Part shown: positions 6,425 through 39,530 of the stretch, in pieces
How the letters are laid out: every line of letters starts with the position of its first letter
How positions within the stretch are numbered: position 1 is the first letter of the stretch
Source of the DNA: Leucobacter sp. OLIS6
Lineage (GTDB): Bacteria; Actinomycetota; Actinomycetes; Actinomycetales; Microbacteriaceae
Reading direction: 5' to 3'
Assembly: GCF_002752355.1 (NCBI RefSeq)
Contig: NZ_MRAV01000008.1
Span: forward strand, 62,001-126,000
Length of the DNA: 64,000 nucleotides
Program-made: the position numbers and the translations under genes
Notes under the pieces: model-generated
Told to the model about the DNA's origin: nothing
What the model saw: only the letters and a program-made list of their open reading frames with translations
The model's database searches: none

Positions 6425-7306
6425 TCAGACGGCGACGCCGCCCAGGAGATCCGCGAGCGCATCGAGTGCGGGAGACCGCCATCGCTTCGCGTGGTGCACG
6501 AAGGAGATCCGCCAGGCCGGGAGCTCGGGATCGACGGCGACGCGCACGACGCCCTCCTCCGCGGGCACGGCCGGCCTGGGGAGCAGTGCCACGCCGAGGC
6601 CGGCTCGGACGAACGAGACCGCCATTCCGGCGGTCGTGGTCTCCGTCGAGACGCGCCTCGTGAAACCCGCGGATCGGAACGCCTCGTCGGAATCGCTCCG
6701 TTGTCCGAAGCCCGTCGCGAAGTCGACGAACGGTTCGTCCGCGATCTCGGCCAGCGAGACGGAGGCGCGCGAGGCCAGCCGGTGGGAAGCGGCCACGACG
6801 AGGTCGACCGGGGCGCCCGGGAGCTGCAGTTCCCGCAGCTCGGGGTGACCCGAAGCGGTCGAGGTGAACGTCGCGTCGAGCCGATCCTCGAGGAGATCGC
6901 GCAGCAGCCCCTCCGAACCGGTCGGGGAGGTGAGCAGGCGCAGATCCACCGCCGGATGCTCGTATCGGAACCGGCCGAGCAGCTCCGGAAGGTCGAACGG
7001 CAGCTCGGCCGCGAGGATCCCGACGCGCAGCAGGCCGCCGACGGCGCCGGTCGCCGCCCGAACCGCCGCAACCGCCGCTCGTTCGGCCGCCAGCAGTTCC
7101 CTTCCGCGAGCGAGCAGCTCCACGCCCGCCGCGGTGAGCTGCGATCGTCGGGTGGTGCGCACGATGAGCGGGGCGCCGAGTTCGCGTTCGAGCGATCGCA
7201 CTCCCGCCGAGACGGTCGATTGCACGACGTGGAGCTTTTCGGAGGCTCGGGTGAAGCCGCCGAGCTCGGCGACGGCGATGAAGTACTCGAGCTGACGCAG
7301 GTCCAT
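6425..7306 (-). CDS. LysR-family transcriptional regulator
   Basis: 293 residues: N-terminal winged helix (LRQLEYFIAVAELGGFTRAS) and a periplasmic-binding-protein-like effector domain with the usual substrate-pocket segments (LLRVGILAAELP, DLRLLTSPTGSEGLL, GLGVALLPRPAVP). Two starts six bases apart are possible. The ATG at 7306 is preferred because GATAAT lies exactly six bases before it, the leaderless spacing seen at many other genes here. It is divergent from the MFS gene at 7410, its probable target. It ends 24 bases from the convergent dehydrogenase gene. Confidence 0.92.
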   Translation of the reverse strand: MDLRQLEYFIAVAELGGFTRASEKLHVVQSTVSAGVRSLERELGAPLIVRTTRRSQLTAAGVELLARGRELLAAERAAVAAVRAATGAVGGLLRVGILAAELPFDLPELLGRFRYEHPAVDLRLLTSPTGSEGLLRDLLEDRLDATFTSTASGHPELRELQLPGAPVDLVVAASHRLASRASVSLAEIADEPFVDFATGFGQRSDSDEAFRSAGFTRRVSTETTTAGMAVSFVRAGLGVALLPRPAVPAEEGVVRVAVDPELPAWRISFVHHAKRWRSPALDALADLLGGVAV

Positions 7307-7313
7307 ATTCATA

Positions 7314-7332
7314 TTATCGGTGATCCCGATAA
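7314..7332. promoter_or_regulatory. LysR box, perfect 7-bp inverted repeat
   Basis: TTATCGG, five bases, CCGATAA. This contains the T-N11-A pattern typical of LysR-family sites. It overlaps the -10 (GATAAT on the minus strand) of the lysR gene and sits about 80 bases before the MFS gene, as expected for autorepression with activation of the divergent target. Confidence 0.65.
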
Positions 7333-7409
7333 GAATTATGCAGATTAGTCGTTGGACACGATGAGTGCGCGGCGTCGAGAGTGGAGGCGTTCAACGAAAC
7401 GGAGTCCCG

Positions 7410-8651
7410 ATGACCGCGCCCCTCGCACTTCCGACCGACCAGAACACCGGATCCCGCCGACACGGGGCCGGGTTCTGGCTCGTCGCGTTCGCCTTCCTCG
7501 TCGGAATGGCCTTCTCGACCGTGCCGACCCCGCTGTACCCCCTGTACGCGCAGCGGGATGGGTTCTCGCCGTTCGTCATCACCGTGGTCTTCGCGGTCTA
7601 CTCGCTCGGTGTGGTCGTCAGCCTCGTGCTCGCCGGGCACATCTCCGACTGGGTCGGCCGCAAGCGGATCATGATCCCCGCGCTCGCCGTCGAAGCGCTC
7701 GCCGCGGTGATCTTCCTGCTCTGGCCGGATCTGCCGGGACTGCTGCTCGGCCGCTTCGTCAACGGGCTCGGCGTCGGCATGCTGACCGCGACAGCGACCG
7801 CCCATCTGCACGAGCTCCATCGACGGCACCGCCCCGAGAGCGGCCCGGGCAGGTTCGAGGCGGTCTCCACCGCGGCCAACATCGGCGGCCTCGGCATCGG
7901 ACCCCTCGTCGCAGGGGCGCTCGCGGAGACGGTGCACGCACCGCTCGTCGTGCCCTACGCGGTGTTCCTCGTCCTGCTCCTGCTCGCCATCGCCGCAGTC
8001 GCCGCGACCCCCGAAACGGTCGAACTGCGCCCCGTACGTCCCGCCTATCGGCCTCAGCGCCCGGGATCCGCCGGCGCGGGGCGCCCCTTCTGGACGGCGG
8101 TCGGTGCGGCGTTCGCGGCCTTCTCGATCTTCGGCGTGTTCACCTCCGTAGCCCCCGGGTTCGTCGCGGGGGAGCTGGGAGAGACGAGCCGACTGCTCGC
8201 GGGAGCCGTGGTGTTCGCGGTGTTCGGCGCCGCGGCGATCGCTCAGACGGCGACGGGTCGGCTCGGCGCGAACACACGCCTTCGTCTGGGGATCGCGGGG
8301 GAGATGCTCGGACTCGTCGTCCTGGTCGCTGGGATGGCGCTCGGCAGCCTGCCCGGTTTCTTGATCGGCGGAGTCCTCGCGGGCGCCGCGGCCGGGATCC
8401 TCTTCAAGACGGCGGTGGGCACCGTCGTCGCCTCCACCCCGGAGGACGGGCGGGGTGCCGCGCTCGCGGGACTGTTCCTCCTGTCCTACGTCGGGCTGAT
8501 CGTGCCCGCGCTCGCGATCGGACTCGCAGTGACCTTCATGCCCGCGACGATCGCGATGACCGGACTCTCCGCGGTGCTCATCGTGCTCCTGCTCCGGGTC
8601 GGTTCGACCGCGCGTGGTTCGGCCGCACCCGTCCGGGCCGCACGCTGTTAG
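7410..8651 (+). CDS. MFS transporter, 12-TM
   Basis: 413 residues of almost continuous hydrophobic segments. The first is GFWLVAFAFLVGMAFSTVPTP; the conserved loop 2-3 motif is GHISDWVGRKRIM, near residues 80-92. It resembles sugar- or drug-efflux DHA1-type permeases. GGAG five bases before the ATG at 7410 sets the start. The LysR gene is divergent and shares a LysR box, so export or import is probably induced by the LysR ligand. The stop codon TAG forms part of the -10 hexamer of the next gene (TAGCGT). Substrate unknown. Confidence 0.88.
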   Translation: MTAPLALPTDQNTGSRRHGAGFWLVAFAFLVGMAFSTVPTPLYPLYAQRDGFSPFVITVVFAVYSLGVVVSLVLAGHISDWVGRKRIMIPALAVEALAAVIFLLWPDLPGLLLGRFVNGLGVGMLTATATAHLHELHRRHRPESGPGRFEAVSTAANIGGLGIGPLVAGALAETVHAPLVVPYAVFLVLLLLAIAAVAATPETVELRPVRPAYRPQRPGSAGAGRPFWTAVGAAFAAFSIFGVFTSVAPGFVAGELGETSRLLAGAVVFAVFGAAAIAQTATGRLGANTRLRLGIAGEMLGLVVLVAGMALGSLPGFLIGGVLAGAAAGILFKTAVGTVVASTPEDGRGAALAGLFLLSYVGLIVPALAIGLAVTFMPATIAMTGLSAVLIVLLLRVGSTARGSAAPVRAARC

Positions 8652-8660
8652 CGTTGGCGC

Positions 8661-9602
8661 ATGGAGCAGAGCGAGTACCGCACGCAGCACGTCGAGGGGC
8701 CGCTGACACTGAACGCGATCTTCCTCGTGGCGCGCGTGGGCGACGGCCGCGCAGCGGTGGACACCGTGCGCGCCGTGCTCGCCGGGCTCGAGGACCTCGT
8801 CAAGACGGTCGGGTTCCGAGCCCCGCGGGCGCGGCTCTCGTGCACGGTCGGGATCGGTGCCCGCGTCTGGGCCGCGGTGGTCGGCGAGGATCGGCCCGCC
8901 GAGCTGCGTCCGTTCCGCGAGATCGCCGGCGCCGTGCACACGGCGGTCGCGACACCGGGCGACCTGCTGTTCCACATCCGGGCGGATCGCGAGGATCTGG
9001 CGGTCGAGTTCGCGCGTCTCCTGCTTACGCGGCTCGGCTCGGCCGTCTCAGTCGTCGACGAGGTGTCGGGGTTCCGGTACTTCGACTCGCGGGACCTGCT
9101 CGGATTCGTCGACGGCACCGCGAACCCGATCGGGCCGGACCTGCCCGCTTCGGCGCTGGTGGGGGACGAGGATCCCGGCTTCGCCGGAGGCAGCTACGTC
9201 GTCGTGCAGAAGTACCTGCACGACCTGGACGCCTGGCAGGGGCTGAGCACCGGAGACCAGGAGGCGATCATCGGGCGGACCAAGTCCGACAACATCGAGC
9301 TCGACGACGCGCCGGACGGCGAGCAGCAGGCGCACAAGTCGCTCGCGACAATCGAGGACGAGCACGGCGAGCACGACATCGTTCGGGACAACATGCCGTT
9401 CGCACGCCCGGGTGCGGGTGAGTACGGCACCTACTTCATCGGCTACTCGCGGCACCTCTGGGTGATCGAGCGCATGCTGGAGCGCATGTTCGTCGGAGAG
9501 CCCGCGGGTAAGCACGACCGGCTGCTGGATTTCTCGACCGCCGCGACGGGCAGCGCGTACTTCGTGCCGACCCCCGAGATGCTGGCCGCGCTCGGCGACT
9601 GA
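8661..9602 (+). CDS. Dyp-type peroxidase (YfeX/DypB-like)
   Basis: 313-residue haem peroxidase. The family hallmark GFVDGTANP lies near residue 150, followed by GGSYVVVQKYLHDLDAW. The C-terminal haem region is EHDIVRDNMPFARP and YFIGYSRHLWVIERML. There is no Tat or Sec signal, so it is cytoplasmic, and no encapsulin cargo tail can be recognised. Such enzymes oxidise dyes and porphyrinogens with peroxide. The transcript is probably leaderless: TAGCGT lies exactly six bases before the ATG and there is no ribosome site. Confidence 0.93.
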   Translation: MEQSEYRTQHVEGPLTLNAIFLVARVGDGRAAVDTVRAVLAGLEDLVKTVGFRAPRARLSCTVGIGARVWAAVVGEDRPAELRPFREIAGAVHTAVATPGDLLFHIRADREDLAVEFARLLLTRLGSAVSVVDEVSGFRYFDSRDLLGFVDGTANPIGPDLPASALVGDEDPGFAGGSYVVVQKYLHDLDAWQGLSTGDQEAIIGRTKSDNIELDDAPDGEQQAHKSLATIEDEHGEHDIVRDNMPFARPGAGEYGTYFIGYSRHLWVIERMLERMFVGEPAGKHDRLLDFSTAATGSAYFVPTPEMLAALGD

Positions 9603-26572: not shown

Positions 26573-26665
26573 TTGTTGGGCATCATCGAGATCGTCGCCG
26601 TGATCATCGGCGTCGCGGCGCTCGTCTATCTGGTGTACGCCCTGCTCAAAGCGGACCGCTTCTGA
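26573..26665 (+). CDS. kdpF: KdpF, small subunit of the potassium-importing ATPase
   Basis: 30 residues forming a single membrane helix (IIEIVAVIIGVAALVYLVYA) and ending LLKADRF, the classic KdpF sequence. It stabilises the KdpABC complex. The start is a TTG at 26573, six bases after AGGGAG; the next codon is also TTG and could serve. Its TGA overlaps the kdpA ATG. A TATGCT -10 lies at 26537-26542. Too short for routine gene finders. Confidence 0.88.
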   Translation: MLGIIEIVAVIIGVAALVYLVYALLKADRF

Positions 26666-28338
26666 TGGAGTGGATCCTCGCGGCGGTCGCGCTACTCACC
26701 GTCATCGTCGTTCTCGGTCTGCTCTACCGTCCCCTCGGCGACTACATGGCCTGGGTGTTCACCTCCGATCGGCACTGGGGGGTCGAACGGCTCGTCTACC
26801 GCTTGTCGGGTATCGATCCCGACCGTCAGCAGACCTGGCGGCGGTACCTCGCCGCGGTGCTGCTGTTCTCGGCCATCGGCTTCGCGCTGCTCTACCTCAT
26901 CCTGCGGTTGCAGCCGGTGCTGCCGTTCTCGCTCGGGCTGCCGCCCATGAGTCCGGACCTCGCGTTCAACACGGCGATCTCATTCGTGGGCAACACCAAC
27001 TGGCAGTCCTACTCGCCCGAGCACACGCTCGGCTACGCCGCCCAGATGGGCGGACTCGCCGTGCAGAACTTCGTCTCGGCCGGGGTGAGCATGGCCGTGG
27101 CCGTCGCGCTCATCCGCGGCTTCGCTTCGCGCGGACGGCGCAGCGGGCTCGGCAACTTCTGGGTCGACCTCGTGCGGGCCAACATCCGCATCCTGCTACC
27201 CCTCTCGATCGTCGCGGCGGTCGTGCTGATCGCCGGCGGCGTGATCCAGAACTTCGCGGGCTTCACCGACATCACGACTGTCGCCGGGGCCGGGCAGACG
27301 ATCCCGGGCGGGCCCGTCGCCTCGCAGGAGGCGATCAAGATGATCGGCACCAACGGCGGCGGCTTCTTCAACGCGAACTCCGCGCACCCCTTCGAGAACC
27401 CGACCCCCTGGACCAACATCCTCCAGACGATCCTCCTACTGCTGATCCCGTTCGCGATGCCGCGGACCTTCGGCACCATGGTCGGCGACCAGCGGGCCGG
27501 CTACGCGCTCCTGCTCACGATGGCCGTGCTGTTCGTGCTCGTCTACATTCCGCTGACGGCATTCGAGTTCGCAGGCGTCGGTACGGCCCCCGAACTCGCC
27601 GGCGGCGCGATGGAGGGCAAGGAGCAGCGCTTCGGGATCATCGGGTCGACGCTGTTCGCGACCGCGACGACCGGCACCACCGGCGGCGCGGTGAACTCGA
27701 TGCACGGCTCCTACACCGCGCTCGGCGGCCTCATGCTCATGTTCGACATGATGCTCGGCGAGGTCGCGCCGGGCGGAGCGGGCTCGGGCCTCTATGCGAT
27801 ACTCGTGCTGCTCGTCATCGCGGTGTTCCTCACCACGCTGCTGCTCGGGCGCTCGCCCGTCTACCTCGGCAAACGCCTCGGGGTGCGGGAGCTCAAGATC
27901 GTGAGCATCTCGATCCTCGTGATGCCGACGCTCGCGATCGGCGGCATGGCGGTCGGGTTCGCGATCCCCGCCGTGCACGACGAGATCATCGCGAGCACCG
28001 GCAACGCGGGATCGCACGGCCTCTCCGAGGTGCTCTACGCCTTCATCTCGGCGGCCATCAACAACGGATCGGCGTTCGCCGGCCTCTACGCGAACACCCC
28101 GCTGCTGAACATCACCCTCGGCGTCGTGATCATGCTCGGCAGGTTCCTCCCCATCGTGCTCGTGCTCGCCCTCGCCGGGTCGCTCGCGGCGCAGGGCAAG
28201 GTCGCCACCACCGTCGAGATGCCCCTGCATCGGCCGCAGTTCATCGTGCTGCTCGTGAGCCTCATCATCTTCATCACCGTGCCGATGTTCGTCCCGATCA
28301 TGCTCGCCGGCCCGCTCGCCGAGGGGCTGAACGGATGA
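26665..28338 (+). CDS. kdpA: KdpA, potassium-transporting ATPase K+-channel subunit
   Basis: 557 residues, normal length. Ten or so helices with four selectivity-filter loops: SFVGNTNWQSY, MIGTNGGGFFNANSAHPFENP, ATTGTTGGAVNSMH and INNGSAFAGL. It conducts K+ to KdpB within the high-affinity pump used at low external potassium. Overlaps kdpF by one base and kdpB by four. Confidence 0.97.
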   Translation: MEWILAAVALLTVIVVLGLLYRPLGDYMAWVFTSDRHWGVERLVYRLSGIDPDRQQTWRRYLAAVLLFSAIGFALLYLILRLQPVLPFSLGLPPMSPDLAFNTAISFVGNTNWQSYSPEHTLGYAAQMGGLAVQNFVSAGVSMAVAVALIRGFASRGRRSGLGNFWVDLVRANIRILLPLSIVAAVVLIAGGVIQNFAGFTDITTVAGAGQTIPGGPVASQEAIKMIGTNGGGFFNANSAHPFENPTPWTNILQTILLLLIPFAMPRTFGTMVGDQRAGYALLLTMAVLFVLVYIPLTAFEFAGVGTAPELAGGAMEGKEQRFGIIGSTLFATATTGTTGGAVNSMHGSYTALGGLMLMFDMMLGEVAPGGAGSGLYAILVLLVIAVFLTTLLLGRSPVYLGKRLGVRELKIVSISILVMPTLAIGGMAVGFAIPAVHDEIIASTGNAGSHGLSEVLYAFISAAINNGSAFAGLYANTPLLNITLGVVIMLGRFLPIVLVLALAGSLAAQGKVATTVEMPLHRPQFIVLLVSLIIFITVPMFVPIMLAGPLAEGLNG

Positions 28339-30470
28339 GTTCCCAACTCGCCCGCGAGAAGCGGCGGAACGCGGTCATCGCCCTGCGCACGCTCGGGCCG
28401 GTGCTGCTCGACGCCCTGCGCAAGTTCGACCCGCGCTATCTCTGGCACAATCCCGTGCTGCTCCTCACGGAAGTGGGTGCCGCGCTCACCACGGTGATCG
28501 CGGTCCTCGACTCCATCGCGGGCACCGAGCAGGCCTCCGGCGGCACGCAGATGCCCTTCGGGTTCACCTGGGCGCTCGCCGGCGGATTCTGGGCCTGCCT
28601 GTTCACGGCGACCCTGGCGGAATCGATCGCCGAGGGGCACGGCCGTCAGCAGACGGAGTCGCTCCGCCGATCGAACGCGACCGATACGGCGCGCCGGGTC
28701 GCCGGCTACAGCCGGTCGAAGGATCCGGCGGTCCGGCGCACCGGGGTCGAGCTGGTCGACTCGCGAGCGCTCCGCACGGGCGACGTCGTGGTCGTCGAGG
28801 CGGGCGAGACGATCCCCTCCGATGGGGAGGTGCTGTGGGGTGCGGCCGAGGTCGACGAATCCGAGATCACCGGGCGTCCGGGCGCGGTGATCCGCGAGGC
28901 AGGCGGAGACCGCACGTCGGTCATGGGCGGCAGCCGCGGGCTGTCGGATCGGCTGGTGGTCCGGATCAGCGCGCCGCGCGACGACAGCGCGGCGGCTCGC
29001 ACCATCAGCCTGGCCAGCAAGTCGCGGCGCAAGAAGTCGCCGATCGAGGTGGCCTTCAGCACGTTGCTCGCCTCGTTCTCCATCTCGTTCGTCCTGCTCG
29101 TGCTCACGCTCAACTCGGTCGTCTCGCCGGTCGCCGAGCCGGTCTCGATCCCGGTCCTCGTCGCCCTCGTCGTCTGCCTGATCCCGACCGAGATCGCCGC
29201 GCTCATGTCGGTGACCGGCATCGCCGGGATGTCGCAGCTGCTCCAGCGCGGCGTGCTCGTCACCTCTGCGAAATCGCTCGAGACCGCGGGCGACATCACG
29301 ACCGTGCTGCTCGACAAGACCGGAACCGTGACCCGGGGCAGCCGCAGCGCGATCGCGTTCGTGCCGGTCGGCGGCACCGACCTCGAGCAGCTGATGCGCG
29401 CCGCCGCCCTCGCCTCGATCGGCGACCCGACTCCCGAGGGTGCCTCGACCGTGCGCCTGGCCGAGGAGGAGGGGGTGCGGATCGCCGCCGACGAGGCTGC
29501 CGGAGGGCGCACCGTGCACTTCAGTGCGGCGACGCGGATCTCGGGCATCGACCTGCCCGACGGGACGAGCATCCGCAAGGGCGCGGTCTCGGCGGTCGTG
29601 GCGTGGCTGAAGCAGCAGGGGACCCAGCCGCAGCGGCAGATCATCCTCGATCTGAAGGCGGGTACGAAGCGCATCGCGCAGTCGGGCGGCACGCCGCTCG
29701 TCGTCGCGGTCAAGCCGGCGTCGGGCATCGGCCACGCGCTCGGGCTCATCCACCTGCAGGACGTGGTCAAGGACTCGGTGCCGAAGAAGATCTCGACGCT
29801 GCACGCCCTCGGGGTCCGCACCGTGATGGTGACGGGCGACCATCGGCTCACGGCGAAGGCGATCGCCGCCGAGGCGGGGATCGACGAGTACGTCGGGGAT
29901 TCCACGCCGGAGGACAAGCTCGCCCTCATCCAGCGGGAGCAGGAGGACGGGCACGTCGTCGCGATGAGCGGCGACGGCATCAACGACGCGCCCGCGCTGG
30001 CCCAGGCCGACATCGGGATCGCGATGAACACCGCGACGGCCGCCGCGAAGTCCTCGGCCAACATGGTGATCCTCGACGACGACCCCACGCACCTCGTCGA
30101 CATCATCAAGGTGGGACGCCGACAGATGGCGACCCGCGGCGCGCTCATGACCTTCAACTTCGCGAACGACGCGGTGCGGTACTTCACGCTCTTCCCGGCG
30201 CTCTTCGTCGGCACCTTCCCGGGCCTCGACGCGCTCAACATCCTGCGCCTCCACTCGCCGGCATCGGCGATCCTGTCGACCGTGATCTTCAGCAGTCTCG
30301 TCATGGGCGTCCTGATCCCGCTCGCGCTCATCGGTGTGCCGTACCGCACCGAGAACCTGCGTTCCGCACTGACCCGCAACCTGATCTACTGCGGGCTCAG
30401 CGGCCTGCTGGTGCCGATCATCGGCATCAAGCTCATCGACCTCGTCGTCAGCCTGCTGCCGGGATACTGA
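28335..30470 (+). CDS. kdpB: KdpB, potassium-transporting P-type ATPase catalytic subunit
   Basis: 711 residues. Phosphorylation motif LLDKTGTVTRG with the acceptor Asp near 326, the TGES-equivalent loop VDESEITGRPGAVI, hinge VMVTGDHRLTAKAIA and MSGDGINDAPALAQADIG. It energises K+ import through KdpA. The ATG at 28335 overlaps the kdpA stop; the longer frame upstream is antisense to nothing and simply reads kdpA out of frame. Confidence 0.97.
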   Translation: MSSQLAREKRRNAVIALRTLGPVLLDALRKFDPRYLWHNPVLLLTEVGAALTTVIAVLDSIAGTEQASGGTQMPFGFTWALAGGFWACLFTATLAESIAEGHGRQQTESLRRSNATDTARRVAGYSRSKDPAVRRTGVELVDSRALRTGDVVVVEAGETIPSDGEVLWGAAEVDESEITGRPGAVIREAGGDRTSVMGGSRGLSDRLVVRISAPRDDSAAARTISLASKSRRKKSPIEVAFSTLLASFSISFVLLVLTLNSVVSPVAEPVSIPVLVALVVCLIPTEIAALMSVTGIAGMSQLLQRGVLVTSAKSLETAGDITTVLLDKTGTVTRGSRSAIAFVPVGGTDLEQLMRAAALASIGDPTPEGASTVRLAEEEGVRIAADEAAGGRTVHFSAATRISGIDLPDGTSIRKGAVSAVVAWLKQQGTQPQRQIILDLKAGTKRIAQSGGTPLVVAVKPASGIGHALGLIHLQDVVKDSVPKKISTLHALGVRTVMVTGDHRLTAKAIAAEAGIDEYVGDSTPEDKLALIQREQEDGHVVAMSGDGINDAPALAQADIGIAMNTATAAAKSSANMVILDDDPTHLVDIIKVGRRQMATRGALMTFNFANDAVRYFTLFPALFVGTFPGLDALNILRLHSPASAILSTVIFSSLVMGVLIPLALIGVPYRTENLRSALTRNLIYCGLSGLLVPIIGIKLIDLVVSLLPGY

Positions 30471-30483
30471 GAGGGGACCGGAT

Positions 30484-31104
30484 ATGCCACGACCGATCAA
30501 CCGCGCCGCGCGCGGCACCTGGATCGCGCTGCGCCTCATGCTGATCTTCACGGTGCTGCTCGGCGTCGCCTACCCGCTCCTCGTCACGGGGATCGGCCAG
30601 CTCGCATTCCCGTGGCAGGCGAACGGCTCGCCGTTGCGCGGCGGCGAGGACGACCGCGTCGTCGGCTCGGCGCTGCTCGGACAGAGCTTCTCGGACGCCG
30701 ACGGGAAACCGCTGCGGCAGTACTTCCAACCGCGCCCCTCCGCGGCGGGGAACGGCTACGATGCCGCTCAGTCGGGCGGCTCGAACCTCGGACCCGAGAG
30801 TCCGGAGCTGGTGCAGCTGATCGGCGAGCGGAAGGCGCAGGTGGCGGAGTTCAACGGCGTACCGGAATCCCGGGTGCCCGTCGACGCGGTCACGGCATCG
30901 GGTTCCGGTCTCGACCCGGACATCAGCTCCGCGTACGCGCGATTGCAGGTGCGGCGCGTGGCCGAGGCCCGCGGGCTGCCGCAGGCCGAGGTGGAGCGGC
31001 TGGTCGCCCGGCACACGTCCGGGCCCGACCTCGGGTTCATCGGCGAGGCGCGAGTCCACGTGGTCGAGCTCAACCTCGCGCTCGACGAGGCCGAGCAGCC
31101 GTAG
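30484..31104 (+). CDS. kdpC: KdpC, potassium-transporting ATPase C subunit
   Basis: 206 residues. One N-terminal helix (LMLIFTVLLGVAYPLLVTGIGQ) and an extracytoplasmic domain with RGGEDDRVVGSALLGQSF, YFQPRPSAAGNGYDAAQSGGSNLGP and VTASGSGLDPDIS, all standard KdpC segments. It is the last gene of kdpFABC; the usual kdpD/kdpE sensor pair is not next to it. Confidence 0.96.
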   Translation: MPRPINRAARGTWIALRLMLIFTVLLGVAYPLLVTGIGQLAFPWQANGSPLRGGEDDRVVGSALLGQSFSDADGKPLRQYFQPRPSAAGNGYDAAQSGGSNLGPESPELVQLIGERKAQVAEFNGVPESRVPVDAVTASGSGLDPDISSAYARLQVRRVAEARGLPQAEVERLVARHTSGPDLGFIGEARVHVVELNLALDEAEQP

Positions 31105-31137
31105 CGGGAGCGCGGGGACGACGACCCGGGCCGTGGG

Positions 31138-32061
31138 TCACGGCTCGGCGAGGCGCTCCCGGTACCAGGCGACCGCGTCGGGACTCGCGTCGGTGGCCGG
31201 ACCGGGATCCTCGCCCAGAGCCGCCCAGATGGCCGAGGATTCGTACCAGTGATCGTCGGTGAGCAGGCGCGTCTGGTGCGGACTGAGACCCAGCCCTTCC
31301 ACTCCACGCGCGAACGCTTCGGACGAGACACGGGGCACTTCGATCCCGGTCAAACGCTCGCAGAGCTCGATCAGGTTCACGGGATCCGGGTGGGCGAGGT
31401 GGAAGGTCCGCGCGCGGAACGCCCCATCGGGTTCCTCGGCGAACCGGATGGCGGCTCCCGCCGCGGCCCGGGCGAGCGCGGGTGCCGCGATCACGGAGCT
31501 GCGCACGGCGCGCAGTTCGTCGGGTGCGCCGAGCCGCGACGCGACCCTCGACAGGGTCGGGACCACCCAGCGGTCGCCCGCGCCCGTGGTGAGCGCGGTG
31601 CGCAGCACCGCGCCGCCGGACGCGCGCACGATCTCCTCCGCCGCGACCCGGGTGCGCGAGGCGACGGACTCCGGATGCGGTTCGAGCGCGCCCTCGGCCT
31701 GGCCCCGGTGGGGTCCCGATCCGTAGATCGAGAGCGTGCTGAGCGCGACGACGGGGGCGCCGTGCGTCCGCGCGGCCCGTACCAGCCGCTCGGCACCGCC
31801 GGCATTCACCGCTTCGGCGGTGCGTGCGTCGGCGCCGACGTACGCGGCGCAGAGCAGGTAGACGTCGGCTCCCATGCGCGCGACCGGGAGCTCGCCGGAG
31901 AGATCGGCCGAGACGTGCTCGACCCTGTCGTCGCCGGCGGCCGTGCGGGGGTGGGCGGCGTCGGATCGCGATAGCGAGACGACCTCGTGCCCGCGTGCCG
32001 AGAGCTCCGCGACGGCGTGGGAACCGAGGAAACCCGTGCCCCCGGTGACAAGAATCCTCAT
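31138..32061 (-). CDS. NAD-dependent epimerase/dehydratase-family (extended SDR) protein, butyrolactone-locus associated
   Basis: 307 residues. Extended SDR: ILVTGGTGFLGSHAV at 3-17, LSTLSIYGSG as the active-site strand, and TALTTGAGDRWVVP. The usual YxxxK is degenerate, so catalysis may be altered. It is divergent from the ArpA/ScbR-type receptor and shares its promoter palindrome. Epimerase-type genes of this kind accompany the AfsA/receptor pair in other actinobacteria (I recall gblE with gblA/gblR in Rhodococcus), where they are thought to modify the lactone. A role in autoregulator synthesis is therefore inferred from context. Confidence 0.8.
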   Translation of the reverse strand: MRILVTGGTGFLGSHAVAELSARGHEVVSLSRSDAAHPRTAAGDDRVEHVSADLSGELPVARMGADVYLLCAAYVGADARTAEAVNAGGAERLVRAARTHGAPVVALSTLSIYGSGPHRGQAEGALEPHPESVASRTRVAAEEIVRASGGAVLRTALTTGAGDRWVVPTLSRVASRLGAPDELRAVRSSVIAAPALARAAAGAAIRFAEEPDGAFRARTFHLAHPDPVNLIELCERLTGIEVPRVSSEAFARGVEGLGLSPHQTRLLTDDHWYESSAIWAALGEDPGPATDASPDAVAWYRERLAEP

Positions 32062-32111
32062 ACTCGTTCCTTTTCCGGCTGTGATGGATAGACTCGTCTG
32101 GATTGCATCAC

Positions 32112-32131
32112 GCGGTTCCGATCGGAACCGC
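32112..32131. promoter_or_regulatory. Perfect 20-bp palindrome, candidate autoregulatory element
   Basis: GCGGTTCCGA followed at once by its exact complement TCGGAACCGC. It lies 51 bases before the epimerase-type gene (leftward) and 23 bases before the receptor gene (rightward), the expected position for the autoregulatory element bound by butyrolactone receptors. The half-site GCGGTTC recurs at 33705 in front of the AfsA gene. Confidence 0.7.
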
Positions 32132-32153
32132 CTGGACCCCTGGGAAGGAACCC

Positions 32154-32852
32154 GTGGCACGACAGCAGCGCGCGATCAGGACTCGCGCCCGTATCATCGC
32201 CGCGGCCGGCGAGTGTTTCTCCGAGAGCGGCTACCGGGCGACCCGTGTCGCCGACGTCGCCGAACGTGCCGGGGCCGCGCTCGGCACCCTGCTCTTCCAC
32301 TTCCCGGCGAAGACCGATATCGCGAACGCGGTCATCGAGCAGCAGCATCGCATCGTCATGGAGGCGGCCACCGCGGTCGAAGAGATGAACTCGCCCAGCG
32401 GTATCGACGACATCATCGTGGTGTCGGCGAAGCTGGCGAATCTCATCTCGACGAACCCCACGGTGCGGGCCGGGCTCCGACTGAGCACCGAGTCCGTCGA
32501 CGATCTCGGCATCAGCTCGGCCCAGCCCTACCTCGACTGGACACGGCAGTGCATCCATCTGCTCGAGAAGGCGCGGGCGGCCGGCGAGGTCGCCGAGGGC
32601 GTGAACCTCGAGCACTTCGCAGAGGTCATCAACTCGGCCTTCACCGGGACCCAGTTCATGTCGTCCGCGGTCTCGGGCAGCCAGGACCTGCCCGAGCGGC
32701 TGGCGAAGCTGTGGCCGATCCTGTTCTCGCAGGTGGTCGACGCCGACTACAGCACGCCGGTGGTGCAGGAACTGCTCGATCGTCATGCCGGCCTCATCGT
32801 CGCCGAGACTCCTGCGGAGGCCGAATCGTCCTCCGTCATCGAAGGGGCATAG
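32154..32852 (+). CDS. Gamma-butyrolactone receptor-type TetR regulator (ArpA/ScbR family)
   Basis: 232 residues. The N-terminus is the ArpA/ScbR pattern: RAIRTRARIIAAAGECFSE, GYRATRVADVAERAGAALG, then LLFHFPAKTDIANAVIEQQH, which is much more specific than a general TetR. Such receptors repress targets until a butyrolactone releases them. The start is the GTG at 32154 right after GGGAAGGAA; an ATG at 32103 is in frame but would run through the palindrome. Its 3' end overlaps the convergent AfsA gene by 70 bases. Confidence 0.88.
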   Translation: MARQQRAIRTRARIIAAAGECFSESGYRATRVADVAERAGAALGTLLFHFPAKTDIANAVIEQQHRIVMEAATAVEEMNSPSGIDDIIVVSAKLANLISTNPTVRAGLRLSTESVDDLGISSAQPYLDWTRQCIHLLEKARAAGEVAEGVNLEHFAEVINSAFTGTQFMSSAVSGSQDLPERLAKLWPILFSQVVDADYSTPVVQELLDRHAGLIVAETPAEAESSSVIEGA

Positions 32853-33676
32853 AGCTCGATCACTGCCGCGGGGTCGGCCTCCGCACCGAATTCGGTGCGG
32901 AGGCCGCCCCCGCGGTGCGTTTCGTCCTCGACGACGCGCATGAAGACCGTGCGCGACTCGTCCAGGTCGAGGAACCCGCCGAATCTCGCGTCGATGCGGA
33001 ACCGTTCCCCGGCAGCTCGGTCGTCCGCGAAGTAGGTGCGGAGCCCGGCAGCGATGAGCAGCATGCCGGGCACGTGATCCACCGGGTGATCGAAGAACAG
33101 CGGATCCACGGTGCCGTAGCGGAGCAGGCTCGTGCGCTCGCTCGCGGGCACGACCTCGAAACCGCGGGGGAGTGAAACCCGTGGGAGCGCATCGGAACGT
33201 GCGCGGTCGCGGCGCATCCGCTGGTAGACCGACTCCTGGACCACGCGCAGATGCCCCTCGCCGACCGTGAGTTCCTCGCCTTCGGGCCCGATGAATCTGA
33301 CTTCGGCGATCAGCGAGGAGAGGCGTTCGCCGCGAGCCTGCAGCGTTCGAGTGATGACCTCGACGGACGAGGCGGATCGGACACGGCCCAGTCCCGCTTC
33401 GAGCACCATCCGATCCATGATGAAGGCCGTGCCGTGCGGAACGGCGTGAGCGAGATGCGCGTAGGCGATCACCGCCTGGCGAAGCGCCTCGGCCGTGTGC
33501 AGCCCCGCGTCGGCGCGCGAGGTCCAGTGCTCGTCCGCGTCCCACCGTCGGTGCGGGGTCAGGCTCAGCGGATCACCATCCGGCGGGAGGCGGTATTCCG
33601 AGAAGAGGACGCCATCGGGTCTGTGCTTGTGGACCAGGTCTGGCGAGACGGGGCCGGATCGGGAAGCGAAAGACAT
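32783..33676 (-). CDS. AfsA-family gamma-butyrolactone biosynthesis protein
   Basis: 297 residues with two AfsA hot-dog repeats. The first has LVHKHRPDGVLFSEYR near 12-27 and ADEHWTSRADAG; the second has DPLFFDHPVDHVPGMLLIAAGLR around 190-212, the hallmark segment. AfsA joins a beta-ketoacyl chain from ACP to dihydroxyacetone phosphate, the committed step of A-factor-type signals. GAGGA sits about nine bases before the ATG. It lies tail-to-tail with the receptor rather than in the usual divergent order, and 85 bases downstream of a phosphatase gene on the same strand. Confidence 0.88.
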   Translation of the reverse strand: MSFASRSGPVSPDLVHKHRPDGVLFSEYRLPPDGDPLSLTPHRRWDADEHWTSRADAGLHTAEALRQAVIAYAHLAHAVPHGTAFIMDRMVLEAGLGRVRSASSVEVITRTLQARGERLSSLIAEVRFIGPEGEELTVGEGHLRVVQESVYQRMRRDRARSDALPRVSLPRGFEVVPASERTSLLRYGTVDPLFFDHPVDHVPGMLLIAAGLRTYFADDRAAGERFRIDARFGGFLDLDESRTVFMRVVEDETHRGGGLRTEFGAEADPAAVIELYAPSMTEDDSASAGVSATMRPA

Positions 33677-33761
33677 GAGTGCCGTCCTCGGTGAATGGGT
33701 TCCCGCGGTTCGTCTGGCTCGAGATGGTGCGTGGGAACCACCGGATCTCCGGTGCGATGAA

Positions 33762-34577
33762 TCAGGAAGTCGCGACGAGCGCACCGCGGAGCCGCAGCAG
33801 CTCGTCCTCCGAGAGCCCACCGGACCGCAGGTACGCTCCGGCGTCGCCGTGCTCGTGCTCGATCCAATCGAGGGCAGCGGTGATCGCGCGCTCGGGTGAT
33901 TTCGTGGCGAGCTCCTCGAGCTTCGGAGTCAGCGGGATCCCGGTGGCGGAGATGTATCCCAGCAGCGTCTGAGCGAACGGCCCGGCGAGATTGTGCTCGG
34001 TGAGCACGTAATCGGCCACGATCGTCTCGCGCGAAGCGCCCGCGACCGAGAGCAGCAGCGCCGCGGCGAGGCCCGTGCGGTCCTTGCCTGCCGTGCAGTG
34101 GAAGAGCACGCCCGGCCGGTCGGTGCCCGCGGCATCGACGACGGCGCGGGCCAGGGTCGCGAACTGCGCGGGGCTGCTGGTGAGGATCGATAGATAGAGC
34201 TCGTCGAGCGTCGGGACCGCGTCGAGCAGCGCGGTCAGCCGCTCGGGATCGATGCCCGCGCCGTTCGGCAGTCCCTCGGCGGGCATCAGGCTCTTGGCCA
34301 TCTCGTCCATGGCGCCGCCGAGCACCGGGAGCGCGACGAACGCGACGCTGCCGTCGTCCGGCAGCGTATCGGCCGAGCGGGCGCGCTCATGGTCGGTACG
34401 CAGATCGACGACGGTGCCGATGCCGAGCTCCGCGAGACCGATGAGGCCGGTGTCGGTGAGCCCGGCGAGTGCGTCGGCGCGAAAGATGACCGGGGCGATC
34501 CGTCCGCCGTGCTCGGTCGAGAGACCACCGAGGCCGCGGGCATTGTGGGTGACCGGAAGAACGTCTGTGAGGTTCAT
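33762..34577 (-). CDS. Tyrosine-phosphatase-fold (Y_phosphatase3/DSP-like) protein
   Basis: 271 residues. Active-site loop FHCTAGKDRTGLAAALLL near 145-160 (Cys nucleophile, Arg) and an upstream VVDLRTDHERAR segment; this is the bacterial PF13350 type that acts on phosphotyrosine, phosphoinositides or small phosphate esters. The ATG at 34577 is chosen over a GTG two codons earlier; both have weak ribosome sites. It lies directly upstream of the AfsA gene. Because the AfsA product carries a phosphate that must be removed, it may be the pathway phosphatase, as MmfP is in furan signalling (inference). Confidence 0.85.
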   Translation of the reverse strand: MNLTDVLPVTHNARGLGGLSTEHGGRIAPVIFRADALAGLTDTGLIGLAELGIGTVVDLRTDHERARSADTLPDDGSVAFVALPVLGGAMDEMAKSLMPAEGLPNGAGIDPERLTALLDAVPTLDELYLSILTSSPAQFATLARAVVDAAGTDRPGVLFHCTAGKDRTGLAAALLLSVAGASRETIVADYVLTEHNLAGPFAQTLLGYISATGIPLTPKLEELATKSPERAITAALDWIEHEHGDAGAYLRSGGLSEDELLRLRGALVATS

Positions 34578-34656
34578 GTGCACCAGCTTTCGTCGCTGAA
34601 CTCAGCCTATCGATTGAGGCTCGAGCCGCGGGGGATCGGAGATACTTGAGCCCATC

Positions 34657-35826
34657 ATGACCGAAACCAAGCGGCCGGGGTACCGAACAGTCGAACCGTT
34701 GCCCGTTCAACGGAGGGGCGTCGATCGCGCGGTCGACGTCGGCTTCGCACTGCTCCTCCTGGTCTGCGGCCTGCGCTACTTCTCCCGGCACGAGCTCGCC
34801 GGTGAGGGGACCTTCGTGCTGCTGCTCGCGATCGGCACCGGCGTGAGCTACGCGGCCGCGGTCCTCGGGCGCGGAGGCACCGGGGCGCGCCAGTCAGCGG
34901 GGCTCCTGCTCGCCACGGGCTTCTGGCTGCCGCTGACGATCGTCGCCCCGTCGTTCGGCTGGTGCGCGTTCGCACTGTTCGTCGCGGTCCATCGTGTGCT
35001 GCGGGGCCGGGCGGCGCGGTGGCTCTCGGCAGTGATCGTCATCGCGGTGAGTCTCGGCCTGCTCATCATGTCGAACGGGCAGGATCCGGGTCTCGTGCTC
35101 GGCCCGTTCTTCGGCGGGCTCGTGCTCGCATCGGCCTACGCCGCGCTCGATCGCGCGCTGTCGGAGCAGCGCCGCCTCAACCGCGAACTGATCGAGGCTC
35201 GCGAAAGACTCGCGCGCAGCGAGCGCGAGGCCGGCGCGCTGGCCGAGCGCGGAAGGGTCGCGAGCGAGCTGCACGACACCGTCGTGCAGCGGACCGCGAG
35301 CGCCCTCCTGCTGCTCGAGACCGACGGGTTGCGGCCCGAGGGCTCATCTTCATCGGTCGAGGAGGCTCGGGAGACGCTGCGCGAGGCGCTGGTCGAGACC
35401 CGGCAGCTGCTGCATGGGCTGGCGGACCCCCGCGAGACCGCGGCCTCGCTCACTGCCGCGTTGAGCGCGCAGGCGAACGCCTCGGGCGCCGGATTCGGAG
35501 TCGTCGGGGACGAACGGGCGGTGCCGGAGGCGGTGGCGCACGCGCTGCAGCGGATCGTTCAGGAAGCGCTGATCAACGCGAGGAAGCATGCATCCGCGCG
35601 CACCGTGCGGGTGACGCTCACCTACTTCGCCGGCGAGGTCGGCGTGGACGTTTCGGACGACGGTGAAGGCTTCGACGCGGGCGGGGGCGGCGACGGCTTC
35701 GGGCTCCGCGCGATGACCTGGCGCGCGGAGAGCCTCGGCGGAACGCTCACGATCGAATCCGGGCCCGAGCGGGGAACGGTCGTCGCCGCGATCCTGCCGA
35801 CCCCGTCCGGAGGAACTCCATCATGA
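34657..35826 (+). CDS. Two-component sensor histidine kinase, NarL/DesK-type
   Basis: 389 residues. Four to five membrane helices (about 25-165), a coiled linker (ALSEQRRLNRELIEARERLA), HisKA_3 with the phospho-acceptor His in VASELHDTVVQ near residue 205, and HATPase_c (LINARKHASA, VSDDGEGFDA, GFGLRAM). The membrane part has no large outer loop, so the signal is probably sensed in the membrane. The response regulator follows with ATGA overlap. Adjacent to, but divergent from, the butyrolactone block; a link between them is not shown. Confidence 0.92.
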   Translation: MTETKRPGYRTVEPLPVQRRGVDRAVDVGFALLLLVCGLRYFSRHELAGEGTFVLLLAIGTGVSYAAAVLGRGGTGARQSAGLLLATGFWLPLTIVAPSFGWCAFALFVAVHRVLRGRAARWLSAVIVIAVSLGLLIMSNGQDPGLVLGPFFGGLVLASAYAALDRALSEQRRLNRELIEARERLARSEREAGALAERGRVASELHDTVVQRTASALLLLETDGLRPEGSSSSVEEARETLREALVETRQLLHGLADPRETAASLTAALSAQANASGAGFGVVGDERAVPEAVAHALQRIVQEALINARKHASARTVRVTLTYFAGEVGVDVSDDGEGFDAGGGGDGFGLRAMTWRAESLGGTLTIESGPERGTVVAAILPTPSGGTPS

Positions 35827-37767: not shown

Positions 37768-37949
37768 CTTCAGCCCTGTTCTCCCGGAGCCGCAGCGGCT
37801 CTGCCGATGCTGCGATTCTAGCGGTGCGGGCGAGCTTCAACCGATCGGTTGATGCCCGGTCGGTGTGCCGATTCCTAGCGTGGAAGGTGTCGCAGAGCCC
37901 TCCCTGGCTCCGACCCGCTCCCGGACCGAATCTGCAAAGGAACCCGCAT

Positions 37950-39530
37950 ATGACCGCTCGTATTTCGACCTCACGCGGATGGATGCTCGCCGCTACGACC
38001 GCGACCGTCGCCGCGGCCTGCCTGCTGCCCGCGGGCGCGGCGCTCGCCGTCGGCGGCCCGGCGCCGACGGCCGCGGTGTCGGAGCTCGCTCCCGCCGCCT
38101 CGACGCCCTCCGACGTGCTGGCCTCGACCCCGTGGGTGACCTCGGCCGCGGTGGATCAGGACGGCGTCGCGGTGGCACTCGACGATCCGCGCGCGGCGAA
38201 CTTCGTCGGCAACGCGTACTTCAAGGCCGACGGCACGTACACGATGTTCAACCTGGACGACTCGCCCAAGCTCCGCGGCGACTGGACCGTCGCGGCCGAC
38301 GGCTCGTCGCGCTGGATCAACGCCAAGGACGCTGCGGGCAACGTGCTGTTCGAGCGCACCGTGCCGATCGTCACCCTCACCGGCACCGACTTCACCTACC
38401 GGGTCGTCGATGCGGCGGACGCGAGCAAGTGGGTCGACATCGTCCACACGCCCACCACTCATATCGAGCCGGGCACGGAGGCGGCCACGATCTCCGCGGC
38501 GACCGCGGCGCTCGCCGCCACCCCGTGGGAGACCACGAGCTCTGTGGATCAGGACGGCGCCGCGGTGGCACTCGACGACCCGCGCGCGGCGAACTTCGTC
38601 GGCAACGCGTACTTCAAGGCCGACGGCACGTACACCATGTTCAACCTGGACGACTCGCCCAAGCTCCGCGGCGACTGGGAGATGCGCGTCGTCGGCGGGC
38701 AGCTGGTGCGCTGGATCAACGCGAAGGACGCCGACGGCAACGTGCTGTTCGAGCGTGAGGTCCCGATCGTGAAGCTCGACGGTGCCGAGTTCACCTACCG
38801 CGTCGCCGGCGCCGGAGGTGCGTACGTGGACATCGTGCACACGCCGACCGACCACGCGGAGCCCGGAACGGTCGATCTCGCGGCCGCTGCCGCAGCGCTC
38901 GCAGCGACCCCGTGGGAGACGACGGGTGCCGTCGACCAGGACGGGAAGCCCGTCGCGCTCGACGACGCTCGGGCCGCGAACTTCGTCGGCAACGCCTACT
39001 TCAAGTCCGACGGCACGTTCACGATGTTCAACCTGGACGACAGCCCGAAGATGCACGGCGACTGGGAAATGCGCGTCGTCGACGGCAAGCTCGCGCGCTG
39101 GATCGCGGCGAAGAACGACGCGGGTGCGGTGCTGTTCGAGCGGATCGTTCCGATCGTCGCGCTCACCGATGCCGAGTTCACCTACCGGGTGGTGGACGCG
39201 ACGGACGCGAGCAAGTGGGTCGACATCGTGCACACTCCGACCGCGCACCCCGAGCCCGGCACCGGGACCGGCGGTTCGAACGGCGGGAGCAACGGTGGTG
39301 CGAACGGCGGTTCGAACGGCGGTGCGAACGGCGGCGCCAATGGCGGTGCGAACGGCGGGTCGAACGGCGGCGGCAACGGACAGGGCGGGAGCGCGCAGGG
39401 TGCGAAGGATCGCCTCGCCGTGACCGGCGGCCAGTCGGGGGGCGCCGGTATCGTGGCGGCGGCGATCGCAGCGATCACGGGCGGCGGGCTGCTCGGCGGT
39501 CGCGTCCTGATGCGGCGCCTCCGCGGCTGA
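37950..39530 (+). CDS. Cell-wall-anchored protein with three DUF4822 repeats and LAxTG sorting signal
   Basis: 526 residues. Signal peptide 1-34 (LAATTATVAAACLLPAGAALA). Three DUF4822 domains of about 120 residues at roughly 58-175, 189-305 and 318-430, each with VDQDG, ARAANFVGNAYFK, MFNLDDSPK, GDW and FTYRV. A Gly/Ser/Asn linker of about 40 residues follows, then LAVTG at 489-493, a hydrophobic helix and the basic tail RRLRG. This is the sortase-E-type LAxTG signal. The function of DUF4822 is unknown. AAAGGAA precedes the ATG. Nearly identical repeats 1 and 2 point to recent duplication or gene conversion. Confidence 0.9.
   Translation: MTARISTSRGWMLAATTATVAAACLLPAGAALAVGGPAPTAAVSELAPAASTPSDVLASTPWVTSAAVDQDGVAVALDDPRAANFVGNAYFKADGTYTMFNLDDSPKLRGDWTVAADGSSRWINAKDAAGNVLFERTVPIVTLTGTDFTYRVVDAADASKWVDIVHTPTTHIEPGTEAATISAATAALAATPWETTSSVDQDGAAVALDDPRAANFVGNAYFKADGTYTMFNLDDSPKLRGDWEMRVVGGQLVRWINAKDADGNVLFEREVPIVKLDGAEFTYRVAGAGGAYVDIVHTPTDHAEPGTVDLAAAAAALAATPWETTGAVDQDGKPVALDDARAANFVGNAYFKSDGTFTMFNLDDSPKMHGDWEMRVVDGKLARWIAAKNDAGAVLFERIVPIVALTDAEFTYRVVDATDASKWVDIVHTPTAHPEPGTGTGGSNGGSNGGANGGSNGGANGGANGGANGGSNGGGNGQGGSAQGAKDRLAVTGGQSGGAGIVAAAIAAITGGGLLGGRVLMRRLRG
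38122..39235 (+). repeat. Three tandem ~390-bp coding repeats
   Basis: Units begin near 38122, 38516 and 38904 (spacing about 394 and 388). Units 1 and 2 are almost base-identical across their first 130 bases, including third codon positions; unit 3 has drifted. Each encodes one DUF4822 domain. Confidence 0.85.
39271..39376 (+). repeat. Degenerate 12-bp Gly-Gly-Ala/Ser-Asn repeats
   Basis: About nine copies of a GGCGGTGCGAAC-like unit encode a flexible spacer between the third DUF4822 domain and the wall-sorting signal. Copy number is likely to vary by slippage. Confidence 0.85.

Follow-up and report, generated by a model that had tools for sequence, protein, structure and literature searches.

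Gamma-butyrolactone (GBL) signaling systems are known mainly from Streptomyces. Outside that genus, the sections of a report on Rhodococcus jostii RHA1 that treat the cluster place gblR between gblA and gblE in divergent orientation, with gblA essential for the signal 6-dehydro SCB2 (PMC5735094). The same sections name JadW2 as a homologue of GblE, give the step of GblE as not known even in characterized systems, and present GBL pathways that assume a non-specific phosphatase (PMC5735094). Here we analyze a locus of the same kind in Leucobacter sp. OLIS6, within a window of 64,000 nucleotides (the whole stretch of DNA that was analyzed), which is part of a 3.33 Mb genome in 22 contigs. The locus encodes an AfsA-family synthase, an ScbR/ArpA-type TetR receptor, an epimerase-type short-chain dehydrogenase/reductase (SDR) and a neighboring phosphatase. 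We read it, with a probability of roughly 60% and from sequence comparison, as a GBL signaling cassette of the gblA-gblR-gblE kind with an atypical synthase, in which the synthase alone was exchanged, relative to Leucobacter sp. Ag1, beside a nearly unchanged receptor. In literature searches, no paper was seen to report Leucobacter genes of the AfsA or GBL kind, or the exchange of a GBL synthase. For Microbacterium, a member of the same family, the pertinent part of a 2016 review states that no quorum-sensing evidence, even bioinformatic, was known (PMC4748050). In the portion of PMC12239160 that bears on the subject, Leucobacter appears as an isolate and GBLs appear as annotated metabolites, and no link is drawn between them.

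Divergence of the synthase between OLIS6 and Ag1

The nearest named relative at the locus is Leucobacter sp. Ag1. Eleven neighboring genes are 88–99% identical in the two genomes, with synonymous divergence (dS) of 0.11–0.39. The synthase (32783–33676, reverse strand) is 43.5% identical, with a dS of 1.02 and a ratio of nonsynonymous to synonymous divergence (dN/dS) of 0.53. At fourfold-degenerate sites of unchanged amino acids, 23 of 47 differ in the synthase compared to 309 of 1622 in the pooled neighbors (p = 5e-6); the excess has a p value of 0.016 against the phosphatase alone and 0.02 against the receptor alone. The low-identity segment, which we read as exchanged, covers about 1 kb (32735–33770, edges approximate, taken from the identity profile and base alignments). 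Identity drops near codon 195 of the receptor and recovers at about the stop codon of the phosphatase. Residues 1–75 of the receptor are identical to those of Ag1, residues 76–194 hold 11 substitutions, and the tail that overlaps the synthase gene is diverged.

Receptor and synthase identities were compared in 201 locus pairs, the OLIS6 and Ag1 pair among them, whose receptors share 60% identity or more. The receptor is 43.6 percentage points more conserved than the synthase between OLIS6 and Ag1, the widest gap of all the pairs; the next is 20.9 and the median is 7.5. At a receptor threshold of 80% identity, 38 other pairs remain, and the gap in these reaches 15.5 at most (three pairs at this level involve a place that was fetched twice).

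On these data, rapid in-place evolution is less likely than exchange of the synthase or the sorting of old copies. Divergence of both synthases from one ancestral gene, unusually fast and with no exchange, would agree with their position as sisters in the tree and with the raised dN/dS, but the silent sites also diverge more than they do in the neighboring genes, and the diverged segment has abrupt edges. We regard this explanation as possible though unlikely. The exchanged synthase may have entered either OLIS6 or Ag1. Searches for a donor in the genus, family, order and class and in a collection of genome contigs found nothing closer than Ag1, and the next-nearest synthases are 37% (G639) and 35% (L003) identical.

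Family, fold and residues of the synthase

The synthase matches PF03756 (AfsA) in two stretches with 51.7 bits, compared to a gathering cut-off of 24. The preliminary description had proposed that a tree placing this hot-dog protein outside AfsA would refute a GBL locus. In a tree of 45 AfsA sequences, built with no outgroup from other hot-dog families, the synthase falls inside AfsA as the sister of the Ag1 synthase (100/98). The two belong to a four-member branch (98/98) together with L003 from Candidatus Lumbricidophila and L234 from another family of the order. The NCBIfam model for ScbA/BarX (NF041195, cut-off 200 bits) gives 94 bits for OLIS6 and 104.6, 157.2, and 173.7 bits for the other three members. 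Six of seven other Microbacteriaceae AfsA proteins tested pass this cut-off (L188 scored 186.6). A structural model of the synthase has a double hot-dog fold with a mean predicted local distance difference test score of 86.4. Its best structural matches are a mitoribosomal protein (three entries), followed by acyl-ACP thioesterases and related hot-dog proteins; a sequence search found no solved AfsA structure.

Hot-dog proteins of the FabZ type pair a His in one half with an acidic residue opposite it in the other half. Nine residues (E63, R66, Q67, H74, H197, D200, H201, P203, and G204) are constant in all four branch members, and they are invariant in the 24 sequences grouped as typical except for G204 (23 of 24). 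The second-half Glu, Arg, and Gln (positions 209, 212, and 213) are A, L, and R in OLIS6. The typical sequences have the Glu and the Gln in 24 of 24 cases and the Arg in 20. At the Glu position the four branch members carry A, A, A, and S, and three of them also lack the Arg. Over the whole tree the Glu is present in 25 of the 45 sequences, the 24 typical ones and L235. It is absent from 15 sequences beyond the four-member branch, 13 of a deep branch rich in Microbacteriaceae plus L174 and L196, and L173 has a gap; thus, loss of the Glu is not unique to the four-member branch. By analogy with the FabZ type, one mirrored site, first-half E63, R66, and Q67 with second-half H197, D200, H201, P203, and G204, appears to be kept and the other (209, 212, and 213) lost, so the synthase would work, if at all, with a single site. 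In ScbA, older mutagenesis reportedly found the second-half Glu and Arg to be important. If both are essential, the OLIS6 synthase would be impaired, and this is the chief doubt about a working signal.

A synthase that is dead or performs other chemistry would leave the well-kept receptor to sense lactones that other bacteria make, or some other ligand. The loss of the three second-half residues, the dN/dS of 0.53, the conservation of a receptor that scores above its family cut-off, and a broken-up AfsA gene beside a receptor in another genome of the genus (L173) all fit such a change of role. However, the reading frame is open in both species, the nine residues are unchanged throughout the four-member branch, and dN/dS is below 1. 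We consider the abandonment of GBL synthesis rather unlikely.

The deep AfsA-like branch (100/98) has 14 members, mostly from Microbacteriaceae (L173, L179, L181–L187, L189–L191, L193, and L237). Apart from L173, which has a gap, these members come from genomes of the family and order and carry H, Q, D, or R at the second-half Glu position. Receptor-type TetR genes are found close to many of them. This branch is possibly a separate AfsA subfamily.

Receptor and candidate operator

The receptor (32154–32852, forward strand) matches TetR_N and TetR_C_45 and passes the NCBIfam ScbR family NF041196 with 178 bits, compared to a cut-off of 150. Its closest solved relative is AvaR1 (6wp7, E = 4.8e-29), and GBL-receptor entries are also among the best matches. 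The preliminary description alluded to a palindrome, and one is present at 32112–32131 in the gap between the divergent SDR and receptor genes. Its sequence is GCGGTTCCGATCGGAACCGC, perfect over 20 bp, and it lies 22 bp upstream of the receptor start and 50 bp upstream of the SDR start. Ag1 retains the palindrome with one mismatch. We take it as the natural candidate for the operator of the receptor.

No other perfect copy occurs in the OLIS6 genome, and two further places match the palindrome with three mismatches. A wide regulon was rejected on these counts, which cover exact and near copies. A scan of 31050–34800 for sigma-70 promoters found none.

Cassette organization and recurrence

Open reading frames (ORFs) and curated family models show all four genes to be intact at the coordinates first assigned to them. 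The SDR (31138–32061, reverse strand) matches PF01370 with 68.5 bits, is 88% identical in Ag1, and is a putative signal modifier, GblE/JadW2-like by position. The synthase and receptor genes are convergent, with their 3' ends overlapping by 70 bases, and the receptor and SDR genes are divergent. The synthase, receptor, and epimerase-type SDR lie together in an order like that of Rhodococcus gblA-gblR-gblE.

The distribution of the cassette was determined by searching 54 genomes of the genus and samples of 398, 396, and 296 genomes of the family, order, and class, with OLIS6 included each time. Genomes with an AfsA match numbered 4 of 54 in the genus, 21 of 398 in the family, 8 of 396 in the order, and 27 of 296 in the class. 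The set of loci around AfsA matches had 116 entries, of which 113 matched the AfsA hidden Markov model (HMM). L002 and L172 are the same place, as are L020 and L245, which leaves 111 distinct AfsA places, 110 of them besides Ag1. The OLIS6 order, with the synthase and SDR genes in one direction and the receptor gene between them in the other, occurs in 11 entries: Ag1 twice and nine other places, six from the same family and one each from the order, the class, and Micromonospora. Other arrangements are common, with 21 further kinds represented by at least one entry each, and 10 entries have AfsA with neither a receptor nor an SDR nearby. These data indicate that the GBL cassette is uncommon yet recurrent. 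The recurrent gene order and the Rhodococcus precedent bear out the earlier proposal of a GBL-type synthase, receptor, and SDR cassette outside Streptomyces.

Two further loci were observed in these searches. In a genome of the same genus (G019), the region L173:6008-8124 has a receptor gene and remnants of AfsA and SDR genes side by side. The AfsA match falls on two separate ORF pieces and contains internal stops, and the SDR match is partial, so this looks like a decaying GBL locus within the genus. L195 carries the AfsA-receptor module twice, at 83–1154 and 7058–9565 with about 6 kb between them, and the first module has a short AfsA piece. The presence of two modules in one genome indicates that duplication of the AfsA-receptor module does occur.

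The neighboring phosphatase

The phosphatase (33762–34577, reverse strand) matches PF13350 with 168.8 bits, compared to a cut-off of 22.2, and its translation has an unbroken HCTAGKDRTG signature loop. The closest solved relative is PtpB (1ywf, E = 3e-18), which is named a protein phosphatase. The phosphatases of the methylenomycin-furan type clusters (mmf and ahfa) are of the HAD type. The OLIS6 phosphatase gene is co-directional with the synthase gene and precedes it by 85 bp, compared to 26 bp in Ag1. The ORFs of every fetched AfsA locus were searched with an HMM of the PF13350 type built from 39 sequences of the genus. The HMM found no match at the 110 AfsA places other than Ag1, although the loci range from 4.2 to 19 kb in length (median 12.6 kb) and distant phosphatases would escape in the shorter ones. 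The phosphatase is beside AfsA in OLIS6 and Ag1 only, among the AfsA places fetched, and the conserved association with AfsA loci that would mark a dedicated pathway phosphatase was not found. Homologues at 67, 60, 60, and 56% identity are present in four genomes of the genus without an AfsA match (one of these, G012, is 89% complete). No other gene of the locus was found around these four, except for a histidine kinase and a response regulator (30–35% identity) near two of them.

The gene order shared by OLIS6 and Ag1 extends over 13 genes, from KdpA to FadR. This shared order was rejected as a sign of phosphatase function since it covers the whole block; it reflects common descent and not a functional tie of the phosphatase. 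The gene distribution suggests that the phosphatase is probably not a dedicated member of the pathway, and its opportunistic use there is possible. A complete four-gene locus with the PF13350 protein as the dedicated enzyme that removes phosphate from a butenolide or lactone phosphate is very unlikely: the direction and spacing may allow co-transcription with the synthase, the pathway needs a phosphatase according to the RHA1 sections consulted (PMC5735094), and related furan clusters have MmfP/AhfaP-type phosphatases in the part of PMC7037778 that covers them, but against it stand the absence from the 110 other AfsA places, the homologues at 56–67% identity in other gene contexts of AfsA-less genomes, the 13-gene extent of the order shared with Ag1, the non-specific phosphatase assumed in published pathways (PMC5735094), and a nearest solved relative named as a protein phosphatase.

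Other genes in the window

The KdpABC genes (26665–31104) adjoin the cassette. A second KdpC with 64% identity is on another OLIS6 contig (G000:C16), and Ag1 has two KdpC as well. The protein encoded at 37938–39530 has three similar repeats, a stretch rich in Gly, Asn, and Ser, and a C-terminal LAVTGG followed by a hydrophobic tail. We take it to resemble a sortase-anchored surface protein.

Discussion

The analysis upholds the synthase, receptor, and SDR of the preliminary description by family and gene order, and it separates the phosphatase from them for want of a conserved association with AfsA. The stronger claim that all steps of the signal are encoded here is not supported, with the phosphatase no conserved AfsA partner and the SDR step unsettled; no search was aimed at a reductase of the BprA/ScbC type. 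In the proposed pathway, the synthase would join a beta-ketoacyl thioester to dihydroxyacetone phosphate, the SDR would modify the product, and some phosphatase, the neighbor or a general one, would remove the phosphate. The finished lactone or butenolide would release the receptor from the palindrome and so turn on the genes for the receptor and the SDR. Between OLIS6 and Ag1 the synthase would have been exchanged by recombination or by the sorting of old copies. A bolder version is that the signal changed at a fixed receptor, with the GBL synthase alone exchanged and a single-site AfsA branch making a lactone or butenolide not yet described. We hold this version to be quite doubtful.

Several observations weigh against an exchanged, working GBL synthase. 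The silent-site excess is modest against the receptor alone (p = 0.02), and recombination cannot be distinguished, from a single species pair, from copy sorting or from very rapid evolution of the gene. Few genomes of the genus have an AfsA match (4 of 54). The region before the synthase gene has no comparable palindrome; all that was seen there is a GGTTCCC...GGGAACC pair separated by 28 bases. The palindromes listed from other receptor-SDR gaps of the family show no clear common consensus by eye. The synthase falls below the ScbA/BarX cut-off and lacks residues present in 24 of 24 typical sequences, so it may not make a GBL.

The point of interest is the atypical, apparently exchanged synthase beside a retained receptor. 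Sister species whose receptors are near-identical but whose synthases differ widely offer a direct test of how signal and receptor change together, because either receptor of the pair can serve as the readout for each synthase. The loss of one mirrored site would also help to assign the chemistry of AfsA to one of its halves. A recurrent cassette in Microbacteriaceae extends the range of GBL systems.

The RHA1 gblA-gblR-gblE set is like the OLIS6 cassette in having the same three kinds of gene with the receptor between the synthase and the SDR, and, as far as the sections on the cluster go, it includes no pathway phosphatase, whereas a phosphatase gene adjoins the OLIS6 synthase. The OLIS6 system also differs in belonging to another genus, in its atypical synthase branch, and in being known here from its genes alone. 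The ScbA/ScbR, AfsA/ArpA, and JadW systems of Streptomyces share an AfsA-family synthase and an ScbR-type receptor with OLIS6, and many Streptomyces loci have an epimerase-type SDR near AfsA. Unlike those systems, the OLIS6 synthase scores under the ScbA/BarX cut-off, is without the second-half Glu, Arg, and Gln, and is encoded convergently with the receptor with overlapping ends. The mmfL-mmfH-mmfP and ahfa clusters likewise combine an AfsA-type enzyme, TetR-type receptors, and a phosphatase, but their third enzyme, as given in the part of the source that covers them, is a flavin-dependent monooxygenase/oxidoreductase rather than an epimerase-type SDR (PMC7037778). PtpB (1ywf) and other PF13350 phosphatases are of the same family as the OLIS6 phosphatase, a likeness by sequence only. 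The kind of cassette is already known from Streptomyces and Rhodococcus, and the OLIS6 synthase is of an unusual branch.

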